44,130 nt of DNA from Propionibacteriaceae bacterium (GTDB lineage Bacteria; Actinomycetota; Actinomycetes; Propionibacteriales; Propionibacteriaceae), in contig JADGPA010000188.1 in assembly GCA_017882685.1 (NCBI GenBank), positions 1 through 44,130 on the forward strand. Reading direction: 5' to 3'. Position numbers and translations under genes: made by a program. The notes under the pieces are model-generated. The model made no database searches. It saw only the letters and a program-made list of their open reading frames with translations, and was not told where the DNA came from. Of the stretch, positions 5,155 through 8,399 are shown piece after piece. Each line of letters opens with the position of its first letter. Position 1 is the first letter of the stretch.

Positions 5155-6009
5155 TCAGCGGACAGCTAGCCCGCGGCGCTGCCGGATACGGGTGGCGACA
5201 GCGCTGAAGCCGGCATCAGCCAGCATGCCGACGGCAAGGATCACCAGCATGTAGGCCAGCAGGCCTGCCGCGTCCCCGAACTCCTGGGCGAAGGCCAGCC
5301 GGTTGCCCAGCGCGACGGCGCCCGGGATGACCACCAGCAACTCCCCTGCCATCAGGGAACGCCAGGCGAACGCCCAGCCCTGGTTGAGCCCACCGACGTA
5401 GGACGGCAGCGCTGCCGGAATGACGATGTAGCGGTACAGCCGCCAGCCCTCCGCACCCAAAACCCGGCCGAGCCGGAAGTAGGCGGGCGGCACCTGGTCG
5501 ACGCCGCTGAGCACGCCGTTCGCAACGCTGGGTGCTGCCCCGAGCACGACGACGAACATGATGGCCGACTCCCCCAGCCCGAGCAGCAGGATGGCCAGCG
5601 GGAACCACACCACGCTCGGCATGGTCTGCAGTCCGGTAACCAGCGAGCCGATCGCAGCGCGCAGCGTCCGGGAGCGTGCGGCGGCCAGGCCGATCGCCGT
5701 CCCGGTGAGCACGGCGAGACCGAAGCCGGCGACGGCACGCACGAGCGTGCGTCCGAGTGCCTGCCAGAACTCCGGTTGGGCGACGATCTGGCCCAGCTCC
5801 GCGAACACCGTCACCGGTCCGGGCAGCAGGTAGTCGGGACGCCAGCCGCTCCACACCACGATCTGCCAGCCGGCGAGGACGATCACCACGGCCAGCAGGA
5901 TCGGTATCGGGCCGCGCGCCCACGCCGAACCGCGGGACGGACGGGCGGGCGCTTCTGCGACCTCGTCGGCGGCGGGCATCTCAGATAGTGAAGTAGTCGG
6001 CGTCGTCAT
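5155..6009 (-). CDS. ssuC: ABC transporter permease, sulfonate/taurine type
   Basis: This is the inner-membrane subunit of an SsuABC/TauABC-type importer (284 aa). About six membrane segments start after a 30-residue hydrophilic N-terminus. The EAA-type cytoplasmic loop is seen as GRVLGAEGWRLYRYIVIPAALPSYVGGLNQGWAFAWRSLMAGELL, typical of SsuC. It overlaps the 3' end of the ATPase gene by 29 nt, so the two are translationally coupled. It ends 27 nt from the convergent ROK gene. Nitrate or taurine transport are alternatives, but the upstream Cys leader peptide points to sulfur acquisition. Confidence 0.88.
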   Translation of the reverse strand: MTTPTTSLSEMPAADEVAEAPARPSRGSAWARGPIPILLAVVIVLAGWQIVVWSGWRPDYLLPGPVTVFAELGQIVAQPEFWQALGRTLVRAVAGFGLAVLTGTAIGLAAARSRTLRAAIGSLVTGLQTMPSVVWFPLAILLLGLGESAIMFVVVLGAAPSVANGVLSGVDQVPPAYFRLGRVLGAEGWRLYRYIVIPAALPSYVGGLNQGWAFAWRSLMAGELLVVIPGAVALGNRLAFAQEFGDAAGLLAYMLVILAVGMLADAGFSAVATRIRQRRGLAVR

Positions 6010-6784
6010 GAACCGCCACCTCCTCCTTCAGTCGACGGGTGAGGTCGGCGGCCATCTCGACCAGGAGGTTCGAGTCCAGCCGGCGGGGACGTGGCAGGGT
6101 GTTGGGCTGGGCGTGGATCACCCGGCCCGGGCGGGAGCCCATCAGGATCGAGCGATCGGCTAGTCGCACCGCCTCGCGCACGTTGTGGGTGACGAAGACG
6201 ACGGTGAACCCCGCCTCCTGCCACACCGATTCGATCAGGTCGTGCATCTGGTCACGGGTCATGGCATCCAGCGCGCCGAGCGGCTCGTCCATCAGCACGA
6301 TCGCCGACTCCTGGGCCAGCACCCGGGCAAGGGCGACCCGCTGCCGCATTCCGCCGGAGAGCTCATGGGGCCGCTGGTCGACATGGCGCCCGAGGCGCAC
6401 CTTGGCCAGGAGTTCGCGGGCTCGCTGCCGGCGTTCGTCCTTGCCGACCCCGCGCAGCCGCAGCGCCAGCTCGACGTTCTGGGCTGCGGTGAGCCAGGGC
6501 AGCAGGGTGCTCTCCTGGAACATCAGGGCCACCCCGCCGTTGGCCGTGACAGTGCCGGTCGTGGGCTGCTCGAGCCCTGCGGCCAGGGAAAGCATGGTCG
6601 ACTTGCCACACCCGGAGCCGCCGACGACGGCCACGAACTCACCCGGGGCGATGTCGAGGTCGACCCCATAAAGGGCGAGGACTTGGGCGTCCCCGCGGCC
6701 GAAGACCTTGCTGACGCCGGAGAGGCGCAGCCGTCCCCTTTCCGAAACCACCGCGCCAGTGGCGGTCGATGCAGCGGCGGTCAC
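5981..6784 (-). CDS. ssuB: ABC transporter ATP-binding protein, sulfonate/taurine type
   Basis: This is the ATPase of the sulfonate importer (267 aa). It shows Walker A GGSGCGKST (near residue 55), signature LSGGMRQRVALAR, Walker B IVLMDEPLGALDAMT and the switch histidine in FVTHNVREAV, as in SsuB/TauB. The GTG start overlaps the ssuA stop as GTGA, and the 3' end overlaps ssuC, so the three genes are read as one unit. Confidence 0.92.
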   Translation of the reverse strand: MTAAASTATGAVVSERGRLRLSGVSKVFGRGDAQVLALYGVDLDIAPGEFVAVVGGSGCGKSTMLSLAAGLEQPTTGTVTANGGVALMFQESTLLPWLTAAQNVELALRLRGVGKDERRQRARELLAKVRLGRHVDQRPHELSGGMRQRVALARVLAQESAIVLMDEPLGALDAMTRDQMHDLIESVWQEAGFTVVFVTHNVREAVRLADRSILMGSRPGRVIHAQPNTLPRPRRLDSNLLVEMAADLTRRLKEEVAVHDDADYFTI

Positions 6785-7839
6785 GTGGTGACCTTCTGCT
6801 GGCCACGCGCGGCCAGCGCTTCATTGAGGGCCGTGACGTCCCACAGCTTCGCAAAGCCGTCGCTGGGCTTGTCCGGCAGCAGCCCGACGGCCGCGGCGTG
6901 GTCAGCCGACGTCTTCAGCGTGGAGGCCAACGGGTCGTCCGTGAACTCCAGGTTCACCCACGAGGCCTTGAGCACGTCGGCAGGGAGTTCCTGCTCGGTG
7001 ATCTTCTTGATCTGGATTGCGACTGCCGTCTGGGCGGCTGCGGGGTTGGCCTTGATCTCATCCAGCGCATCGAGGTGGGCCTCGATGAACGCGCGGACGG
7101 CGCCGGGGTGCTGCTGGACGAAGGCCGTGCGGGCGATCACATTGGTGGTGACGAACTTGCCGTCAGGCCACAGCGTCTTCTCGTCCACGAGAACCTTGCC
7201 GCCTGCCTTCGCCAGTCGCGTGGCGAACGGCTCGGGCACCCATGCGCCGTCGATCGAGCCGGCGGCGAACGCCTGGACGGCGGCCGAGTTCTGCTGCGGC
7301 AGGATCGAGACGTCGCCGCCGCCGTCCTGGGTCGCATTCAGCCCGTTCTGCTTGAGCCAGTAGCGCAGCGCGATGTCCTGGGTGTTGCCCAGCTGCGGAG
7401 TGGCGAGCTTCTTGCCGCGCAGTTGCTCGACCCCGGTGATGCCGGGCTTGACCACCAGCGACGCCCCACCGGAGGTCGAGCCGGCGATGACCCTGATGCC
7501 ATCGGAGTGTGACTGGACGTAGGCGGTAACCGTCGGGTTGGGCCCGATGTAGCTGATGTCGAGCGAGCCGCTGAGGATGGCCTGGATGACGTCCGGGCCG
7601 GCGTTGAACGACTTGGTGTTCACCTTGATGTTCAGCTTGCCGAAGCGCTCGGTGAACTTACCCTCGGCGTCGGCAACGAGGCCGGGCGCCTGGGTGAGGT
7701 TCGGGAAGTAGCCGATGTTCACCTGGTCGAGGGCTGGCGGGCCTGAGGCGGAAGCGGCGGCGCAGCCGGGCAGCAGCAGCGCAGCGAGCGTTGCCGCGAT
7801 GGCGGTGGTGGTGCCGATTCGGTGTTGCCTTCTGGACAT
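6781..7839 (-). CDS. ssuA: Aliphatic sulfonate ABC transporter substrate-binding lipoprotein
   Basis: This is the extracellular binding protein of the importer (352 aa; SsuA/NMT1 fold). A lipoprotein signal ends in LLPGC. The mature part has VNIGYFPNLTQAPGLVA, ILSGSLDISYIGPNPTVTAY, LRGKKLATPQLGNTQDIALRYWL and GSIDGAWVPEPFATRLA, all characteristic of SsuA-like proteins. The frame is open upstream to 8190, but the ATG at 7839 has AGGAGA six bases before it and starts exactly at the signal peptide. The exact ligand (alkanesulfonate, taurine or another organosulfur compound) is not determinable. Confidence 0.88.
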   Translation of the reverse strand: MSRRQHRIGTTTAIAATLAALLLPGCAAASASGPPALDQVNIGYFPNLTQAPGLVADAEGKFTERFGKLNIKVNTKSFNAGPDVIQAILSGSLDISYIGPNPTVTAYVQSHSDGIRVIAGSTSGGASLVVKPGITGVEQLRGKKLATPQLGNTQDIALRYWLKQNGLNATQDGGGDVSILPQQNSAAVQAFAAGSIDGAWVPEPFATRLAKAGGKVLVDEKTLWPDGKFVTTNVIARTAFVQQHPGAVRAFIEAHLDALDEIKANPAAAQTAVAIQIKKITEQELPADVLKASWVNLEFTDDPLASTLKTSADHAAAVGLLPDKPSDGFAKLWDVTALNEALAARGQQKVTT

Positions 7840-7892
7840 CTGGTCTCCTGACGATGTGCTGGGTGCCGCGCGCACAGGGAACCGGACAGGAG

Positions 7893-7913
7893 GCCGGGCC
7901 TGAACGGCCCGGC
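7893..7913 (-). promoter_or_regulatory. GC-rich hairpin between leader peptide and ssuA (candidate attenuator element)
   Basis: A perfect 8-bp inverted repeat (GCCGGGCC / GGCCCGGC) with a 5-nt loop lies 20 nt after the leader-peptide stop codon and about 53 nt before the ssuA start. There is no U-tract, so an intrinsic terminator is not obvious. It could act in a Rho-type or ribosome-stalling attenuator. The stem is seen; the function is inferred. Confidence 0.5.
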
Positions 7914-7933
7914 GGTGGTGGTTGCGGGCTCGA

Positions 7934-8014
7934 TCAGCTCCGGCAACACATCTGGACACGCACGTCACCGAGCGCGCCGATAACGGCTGCGACCCTGCTG
8001 TGGCGTCCGGACAT
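7934..8014 (-). CDS. Leaderless cysteine-rich leader peptide upstream of ssuABC
   Basis: This is a 26-residue open frame beginning Met-Ser-Gly-Arg-His and ending V-Q-M-C-C-R-S-stop. The tandem Cys codons three and four from the end are the hallmark of the actinobacterial polycysteine upstream ORFs, described in mycobacteria as cysteine-responsive attenuators of sulfur-assimilation operons. The ATG lies exactly 7 nt after a -10 hexamer, so the transcript would begin at the A of ATG, a leaderless start as in the mycobacterial cases. A shorter peptide from the in-frame GTG at 7963 (MRVQMCCRS) is an alternative. Inferred logic: slow decoding of the Cys codons when cysteine is short would expose the ssuA ribosome site. 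Confidence 0.75.
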   Translation of the reverse strand: MSGRHSRVAAVIGALGDVRVQMCCRS

Positions 8015-8021
8015 GGGCGAG

Positions 8022-8049
8022 AACCTAGCACGACTTGGGAGCCGAACAA
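8022..8049 (-). promoter_or_regulatory. Promoter of the ssu leader transcript
   Basis: On the minus strand -35 TTGTTC (8044-8049), a 16-nt spacer and -10 TAGGTT (8022-8027) are followed 7 nt later by the leader-peptide ATG at 8014. This places the transcript 5' end at or next to the start codon. Confidence 0.6.
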
Positions 8050-8172
8050 ACTCACCAACAGCGTTTCTGGATGCCTCGGGTGCGGACCGGCTTCGCGGCA
8101 CTGCGATCGTGAACGGTGACAAGAACCGTAGTCAGGCCGTGTTGCATGGAGGGCGAGGAAGCGAAAAGGAAA

Positions 8173-8211
8173 GGCTCCGACGCCCGGCAATTCAACGAGC
8201 GTTGCGGAGCC
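8173..8211 (-). terminator. Probable terminator after tRNA-Thr
   Basis: On the minus strand GGCTCCG (overlapping the last tRNA bases) pairs with CGGAGCC about 25 nt downstream, and the stem is followed by a pyrimidine/T-rich run (TTTCCTTTTC). It would insulate the tRNA from the ssu leader downstream. Confidence 0.55.
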
Positions 8212-8280
8212 GCCTTCGGGAATCGAACCCGAGACCTACGCTTTACGAGAGCGTCGCTCTACCGACTGAGCTAAGGCGGC
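8208..8280 (-). tRNA. tRNA-Thr (anticodon CGU)
   Basis: A 73-nt cloverleaf reads on the minus strand. A 7-bp acceptor stem GCCGCCT/AGGCGGC, D arm AGCTCAGTCGGTAGAGC, and a 5-bp anticodon stem ACGCT/AGCGT enclose loop CTCGTAA with anticodon CGT. The T arm contains GGTTCGATTCC. The CCA end is not encoded. CGU reads ACG threonine codons. Confidence 0.95.
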
Positions 8281-8306
8281 GCGGCCGGTCCATCGGCCGA
8301 GGCACA

Positions 8307-8312
8307 ACTATA
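8307..8312 (-). promoter_or_regulatory. Candidate -10 element of tRNA-Thr
   Basis: TATAGT on the minus strand ends 26 nt before the mature tRNA 5' end, a normal distance for a tRNA promoter. No good -35 hexamer is visible at 16-18 nt. Confidence 0.4.
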
Positions 8313-8399
8313 GGGGCAAGTGCCCTTTGGTACTGATTCGGGGCCCTTCGTGACGCCGGCCTCGTTCCTCGGACGGCTCCTCAGGGACCGTGATGGCGC

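Follow-up and report, generated by a model that had tools for sequence, protein, structure and literature searches.

How might an importer of sulfonates, which serve as a source of sulfur, be placed under the control of cysteine by a short reading frame lying in front of its genes? The question arises from the window, by which we mean the whole 44,130-nt stretch of DNA analysed here (contig C108 of a 2.99-Mb Propionibacteriaceae assembly in 215 contigs, 88.9% complete), where a cysteine leader precedes the sulfur gene ssuA on the same strand, its peptide ending in Met-Cys-Cys-Arg-Ser (MCCRS). From comparison with related genomes, we consider that this leader is very probably a cysteine-responsive leader-peptide attenuator acting on ssuABC, and we favour transcription attenuation or pausing at its downstream hairpin as the read-out only moderately.

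The ssu leader and its surroundings

Re-reading the window returned exactly the arrangement and coordinates of the original prediction, namely a promoter, a 7-nt gap, a 26-codon MCCRS frame, 20 nt from the leader stop to an 8-bp hairpin, and then ssuA, whose ATG lies 53 nt beyond the hairpin (Table 1). The promoter had been called good, and this was borne out in part: both hexamers were present on the minus strand with a 16-nt spacer between TTGTTC and TAGGTT, but a strict promoter scan of positions 7800-8320 reported none. A strict terminator scan of the same interval was also empty, so that neither the ssu promoter nor hairpin P2 is of textbook consensus. The -35 position was poorly conserved in the alignment, reading TTGTGC, TTGCCG and ATGTCG in three relatives. 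No Rfam cis-regulatory family scored above its cut-off between 7600 and 8500, where only the tRNA passed, and no NCBIfam family was found for the 26-aa leader peptide.

Table 1. Features of the ssu locus, in window coordinates
Feature	Position	Strand	Remarks
ssuC-like permease	5155..6009	-	Pfam BPD_transp_1; NCBIfam matches below cut-offs
ssuB-like ABC ATPase	5981..6784	-	Pfam ABC_tran; best NCBIfam match names sulfonate type, below cut-offs
ssuA-like lipoprotein, sulfonate-binding family	6781..7839	-	SsuA_fam TIGR01728; ATG at 7839
ssuA ribosome-binding site CAGGAG	7845..7850	-	GGAG 7848-7845; complementary CTCCTG at 7892-7887
P2 hairpin, regions 3:4	7893..7913	-	GCCGGGCC-GTTCA-GGCCCGGC; perfect 8-bp GC stem, 5-nt loop
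P2 core	CGGGC 7911-7907 with GCCCG 7899-7895	-	Complementary arms
P1 possible local hairpin, regions 1:2	7921..7947	-	Spans Cys codons, stop and GCAAC; predicted, weak in ssu
Region 2 GCCCG	7925..7929	-	Able to pair with region 3
Probable leaderless uORF MSGRHSRVAAVIGALGDVRVQMCCRS	7934..8014	-	26 codons + TGA; ATG 8014, TGA 7936-7934
Sensor codons TGT TGC (Cys23, Cys24)	7943..7948	-	Two codons separate them from the stop; invariant in alignment
Extended -10 TGC-TAGGTT	8022..8030	-	TAGGTT 8027-8022; ends 7 nt 5' of leader ATG
-35-like hexamer TTGTTC	8044..8049	-	Read from sequence; weakly conserved
tRNA-Thr(CGT) gene	8206..8280	-	Upstream of ssu leader, same strand

The product of ssuA scored 187.9 bits with the SsuA_fam profile TIGR01728 (cut-off 163.5). 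Among named records, the nearest SsuA loci came from Propionicimonas assemblies, so the window probably derives from that group, of the family Propionibacteriaceae. A tRNA-Thr(CGT) gene also lies upstream of the ssu leader, on the same strand, in one relative (G016; L032, 1278-1353), and none turned up in the stretches from G014 and G019; read-through from such a gene could yield a leadered ssu transcript.

Conservation of the leader and its sisters

SsuA of at least 79% identity was encoded in five of the 30 genomes of the genus, the window's own counted. One of these, G020, begins inside ssuA at a contig edge, which leaves four genomes with checkable upstream sequence, and the leader was present in all four (the window's and three same-genus relatives). 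In alignment A1 these leaders have in common the extended -10 region CGTGCTAG[GT]TTCT and an invariant block, TCCAGATGTGTTGCCGGAGCTGA; each places its ATG 7 nt after the -10 box and keeps an uninterrupted frame of 26 codons, without indel, that closes on an invariant MCCRS. A comparative search for conserved CC-R peptides ahead of ssuA homologues, suggested with the original prediction, recovered MCCRS in every checkable genome with a close SsuA. Loss of the Cys-Cys codons from close relatives retaining the promoter and ssuA had been named beforehand as evidence against the leader, and no such loss was seen, 4/4 having kept them.

The first bases of the frame were conserved and its middle had diverged, with pairwise differences of 17 to 31 of 54 nt over codons 1-18. 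Substitutions in these codons followed no consistent codon-position bias, a pattern that would make the upstream peptide sequence seemingly unimportant; the frame and its length appear to matter, while the peptide upstream of the sensor does not seem to. In the last codons even synonymous sites are invariant, which suggests a role for the RNA there as well. As judged from these alignments, conservation of the ssu leader is beyond chance.

The distribution of the leader is narrow. We scanned 48 SsuA loci (40 of 44 from one set and 8 from another) over about 450 nt above the estimated start, looking only for frames with CC or CxxC near the end: three loci of this clade carry an MCC leader and 45 do not, among them five same-genus loci at 50-54% identity. 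In four of the 45, some frame with CC or CxxC was present, and none was accepted as a leader. A DNA search of 146 relatives gave matches in eight genomes, four of which, with the window's own among them, belong to this clade; the remaining matches (L035-L038) spanned 38-51 bases and were taken for chance. Throughout the SsuA loci and class genomes searched, the ssuA-linked leader was seen only in this clade.

A sister leader precedes the NIR_SIR gene (sir), with PF01507 genes following. Sulfite reductase (PF01077) was found in 8/30 genomes of the genus and the cysH family (PF01507) in 13/30; in the window's genome the two occur together on contig C131. Fetched sir loci were scanned for leaderless Cys-rich frames, with neither Met nor CCRS required, and leaders ending in MCCAY, MCCAS or MCCAC appeared in five genomes, including the window's own. 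A MISASLACCF frame (L106) from the same scan was set aside as unrelated. Further MCC leaders were located in G014 and in G016, where the following gene begins like sir. The MCC leader is present in seven of the eight sir genomes of the genus, that is, the window's and six relatives, and six of these seven leaders have CGTGTTAGGGT as their -10 box. The eighth genome, G021 (L141), has a leader that starts 7 nt after a TACCGT box and ends in MCRAL. By its sequence it is a partial exception to Cys-Cys conservation, the pair being lost in one of eight sir leaders. This leader has two extra Cys codons earlier in the frame (VCRRC) and is a possible natural test of the number of Cys codons needed.

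In the 23-aa sir leaders (L138, L139, L140, L143, L144), third positions of codons 1-18 vary less than first positions in 10/10 pairs. Such constancy, the reverse of the normal coding pattern, hints at an RNA constraint inside the frame. In sequence terms, the ssu and sir leaders share one grammar, with the same MCC sensor end and the same pairing triple described below. This likeness bears on whether the conserved ssu block could instead be a DNA site for a repressor, the frame being incidental. Identity that reaches synonymous sites would suit a repressor site, but we hold it to be highly improbable, because frame and length were kept without indel across a diverged middle and because ssu and sir have codons and pairing triple in common with no common block.

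For a search of the family we used the pattern TAGGNT, 6-8 nt, NTG, 33-63 nt, ATG TGY TGY, two codons, TRA, which occurred at 10 places in seven of 198 genomes and nowhere in the reversed control. Three places lie before ssuA, six before sir and one before a DUF4395 gene. The last (L154, in G402 of another genus of the family) is a leaderless frame ending in RMCCRA before DUF4395 (PF14340), a gene that is a possible third target of cysteine leaders. Together with two G014 leaders, whose -10 boxes differ, these make 12 leaders. The -10-to-start gap was 7 nt in 11 and 10 nt in one, in a count that permitted only 7 or 10 and included two leaders retrieved by a pattern in which the gap was set at 6-8. 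Every one of the 12 has two codons between its Cys pair and the stop, a spacing that was built into the search for the sir_G016 and DUF4395 leaders. The first Cys codon is TGT in 12/12, and TGT is a minority codon in the GC-rich window, making up 28/135 Cys codons counted over 26 gene-like frames; the leaders being related, this constancy is only suggestive.

Met also precedes Cys-Cys in 12/12 leaders, nine of which were found without requiring it, and the G021 leader has Met before its Cys as well. The sensor might, on these grounds, be an arresting nascent peptide or respond to Met and Cys combined, rather than to plain starvation for Cys codons. We think this quite unlikely. MCC is all that ssu (VQMCCRS, LQMCCRS) and sir (RSMCCAY, GSMCCAC, GSMCCAS) have in common, which is little for an arrest peptide; the invariant third positions point to an RNA constraint, and the CCCC leaders of another genus, considered next, have Val in place of Met before Cys.

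Wider pattern searches were of uneven value. A loose pattern, TGYTGYCGNWSNTGA, was present in 30/30 genomes and too common to use. The -10/ATG/CCRS-stop pattern matched 3/391 genomes of the order, in each case at the ssu leader (window, G014 and G016; G019 was outside the sample), and its reversed control also gave three matches, so that the count proves little. A first search of the class, with a 21-51 nt gap that excludes the ssu and sir leaders (54-63 nt), gave nine matches and five control matches in 394 genomes; the sole in-frame match, L169, was not accepted as a leader. With a 45-75 nt gap there were 20 places in 18/335 genomes and four control matches. Seven of the 20 were in frame: the two leaders of the window's genome and five CCCC leaders (MQTASG...VCCCC; L178-L182) from five genomes of one other genus, g43. 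A similar gene follows all five, and in the one case tested it codes for the substrate-binding protein of a sulfate ABC transporter (166.6 bits with TIGR00971, cut-off 155.5). Judged by such frames, predicted leaderless Cys leaders upstream of sulfur importers are not confined to this family.

Pairing elements and the likely read-out

The comparison of RNA structure covered 11 leaders from ssu and sir loci; that of DUF4395, longer and of a different layout, was left out, and the G021 leader was found later. Region 2, GCCCG, lies 3-4 nt after the stop codon in ten leaders and reads GCCCCG in ssu_G016, and the linker from there to P2 varies in length and sequence. The 5' arm of P2 holds CGGGC, so a complementary triple GCCCG-CGGGC-GCCCG is common to the 11 leaders, and the G021 leader has the same three elements. 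A complementary triple of this kind appears in the account of actinobacterial trp attenuators in PMC1262725. The five pairs of the P2 core were present in 55/55 cells, in a count anchored on CGGGC and with the invariance of that arm partly by construction; further out, the type of pair varies, though pairing is often retained. CGGGC lies in or next to the 5' arm of the longest hairpin in 11/11 leaders vs 1.4-9.8% of shuffles (500 each), the leaders being related and the counts not independent. Against shuffles, the fold had z < -3 in five leaders, -1.0 to -2.0 in four and near 0 in two; this ordinary stability of P2 in two leaders, and mild stability in four, argues against an attenuator. P1 is possible in 7/7 sir leaders as GCGCGU/ACGCGC and belongs to the predicted best fold of five.

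The competing pairings 2:3 and 3:4 are present as sequence complementarity. In the folding model, forcing 2:3 cost 1.5-8.4 kcal/mol at equilibrium, the 2:3 helix being weak, and a switch would therefore have to be kinetic, taking place during transcription. The geometry is regular: region 2 starts 18 nt (sir) or 19 nt (ssu) downstream of the first Cys codon, counting from that codon's first base, and its end falls within 13 nt of the point where the stop codon begins. If a ribosome is assumed to shield some 13 nt, measured from the start of the codon in its A site, then one stalled at either Cys codon leaves region 2 free and one on the stop covers it; this would account for the constant distance between the Cys pair and the stop in the 12 leaders.

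We accordingly picture the attenuator as follows, on the strength of sequence features. Transcription would start on the A of the leader ATG or next to it, and a ribosome would load on this 5' end and read 21 loosely constrained codons before Met-Cys-Cys. With ample Cys-tRNA, it would reach the stop two codons on, its footprint over region 2, and regions 3:4 would form P2, presumably keeping ssuABC low. With Cys-tRNA short, the ribosome would stall on UGU or UGC and expose region 2, which could pair with region 3 (CGGGC), delay or prevent P2, and let the importer be expressed. P2 might act by termination, by pausing or through ssuA translation.

Points against this picture are that the sensor has only two Cys codons and that no U-tract follows P2 in the leaders inspected; the latter, together with the empty terminator scan, speaks against a classical transcription attenuator. 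Absence of the U-tract would suit termination by Rho, with reading or stalling in the frame deciding Rho access to the C-rich stretch past the stop. The linker after the stop is indeed C-rich, and a weak prediction of this sort was offered for mycobacterial cys leaders (PMC1262725). Rho control is nevertheless rather improbable in our estimate, for the linker is short and not conserved and the shared triple would be left unexplained.

Another route is translation attenuation of the mycobacterial type, in which the leader mRNA would hide the ssuA ribosome-binding site until a stall on the Cys codons breaks the fold; M. smegmatis cysteine genes are said to be so controlled (PMC13236596). Complementary segments that could mask the site exist in the window (CTCCTG/CAGGAG) and in G014 (GTGTCTCC/GGAGACAC). 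The Cys codons are able to pair with the ssuA start in the window and G016, but such pairing is not evident in G014 and G019. When 2:3 was forced, the unpaired share rose from 0.04 to 0.26 at the site in the window and from 0.04 to 0.55 at the start codon in ssu_G019. In the remaining ten leaders the site did not open, its unpaired share dropping in ssu_G019 (0.74 to 0.50) and staying within 0.05 elsewhere, and a modelled stall alone left it as masked or more so. The share of shuffles at least as masked ranged from 0.01 to 0.78 over the 11 leaders (0.24 for the window), and masking beat shuffles in 1/11 leaders at 0.05 and 2/11 at 0.10. Masking is thus unsupported by the shuffle comparison as a conserved feature, and we regard this route as possible but doubtful.

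The original prediction that the mycobacterial cysteine mechanism gates ssuABC was sustained in its sensor half, with Cys-Cys, the -10 box, the 7-nt gap and the link to ssuA kept in 4/4 genomes and the MCC end recurring before sir; a read-out of the mycobacterial kind is more doubtful, the ribosome-binding site being seldom better masked than in shuffled sequences. An extended form of the cysteine attenuator, which we put forward tentatively and think unlikely to hold as a whole, is a sulfur regulon of the genus in which leaderless Met-Cys-Cys leaders would be kinetic transcription attenuators, with a 2:3:4 switch lacking a U-tract, gauging both sulfur amino acids and coupling sulfonate import to sulfite reduction by a shared RNA grammar.

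Relation to known cysteine leaders

Two operons of one genome thus carry the same sensor end, a near-equal spacing from Cys codons to region 2 and a shared triple, and organic sulfonate import and sulfite reduction are placed under what looks like one cysteine signal. Propionibacterium acnes belongs to the same family as the genome of the window. Cysteine leader peptides were predicted in 2005 upstream of the cys operons in Mycobacterium and P. acnes and of cbs in Bifidobacterium longum (Seliverstov et al., PMC1262725). That paper describes the mycobacterial set as having no conserved terminator-like hairpins and calls its mode of regulation unknown. The present leaders resemble those predictions: they too are short, carry Cys codons close to the stop and lie before a sulfur operon. 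They differ from the mycobacterial ones, as described there, in the GCCCG-CGGGC-GCCCG triple shared after the stop and in the sulfonate importer as target. The triple gives the switch structure missing from the 2005 predictions a concrete, mutable form.

In 2015, leaderless uORFs rich in Cys were described upstream of cysA2, Rv0485 and nirA (Shell et al., PMC4633059), and a cysteine-responsive function in M. smegmatis was reported in 2020 (Canestrari et al., as cited in PMC9094748, PMC13236596). Like the mycobacterial polycysteine short ORFs, as far as these sources describe them, the ssu leader is a predicted leaderless uORF with terminal Cys codons and a sulfur gene downstream; unlike them, it has a single pair of Cys codons set two codons ahead of its stop, ssuABC as target and little support for masking. 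The CCCC leaders of g43 resemble the published polycysteine type, one of them preceding a sulfate importer gene. A literature search on ssu or sulfonate genes with leader peptides, polycysteine or uORFs returned nothing on point; the 2020 mycobacterial study could include such genes.

With classical attenuators (trp; M. tuberculosis ilvB, as outlined in PMC13236596) the leader shares control codons, competing pairings and a stop placed for cover of region 2, whereas it has no U-tract and a weak 2:3 helix. As far as the literature consulted tells, the kind is already known, and what the locus adds is ssu as a target, the spacing MCC-x-x-stop and a pairing triple common to the leaders.
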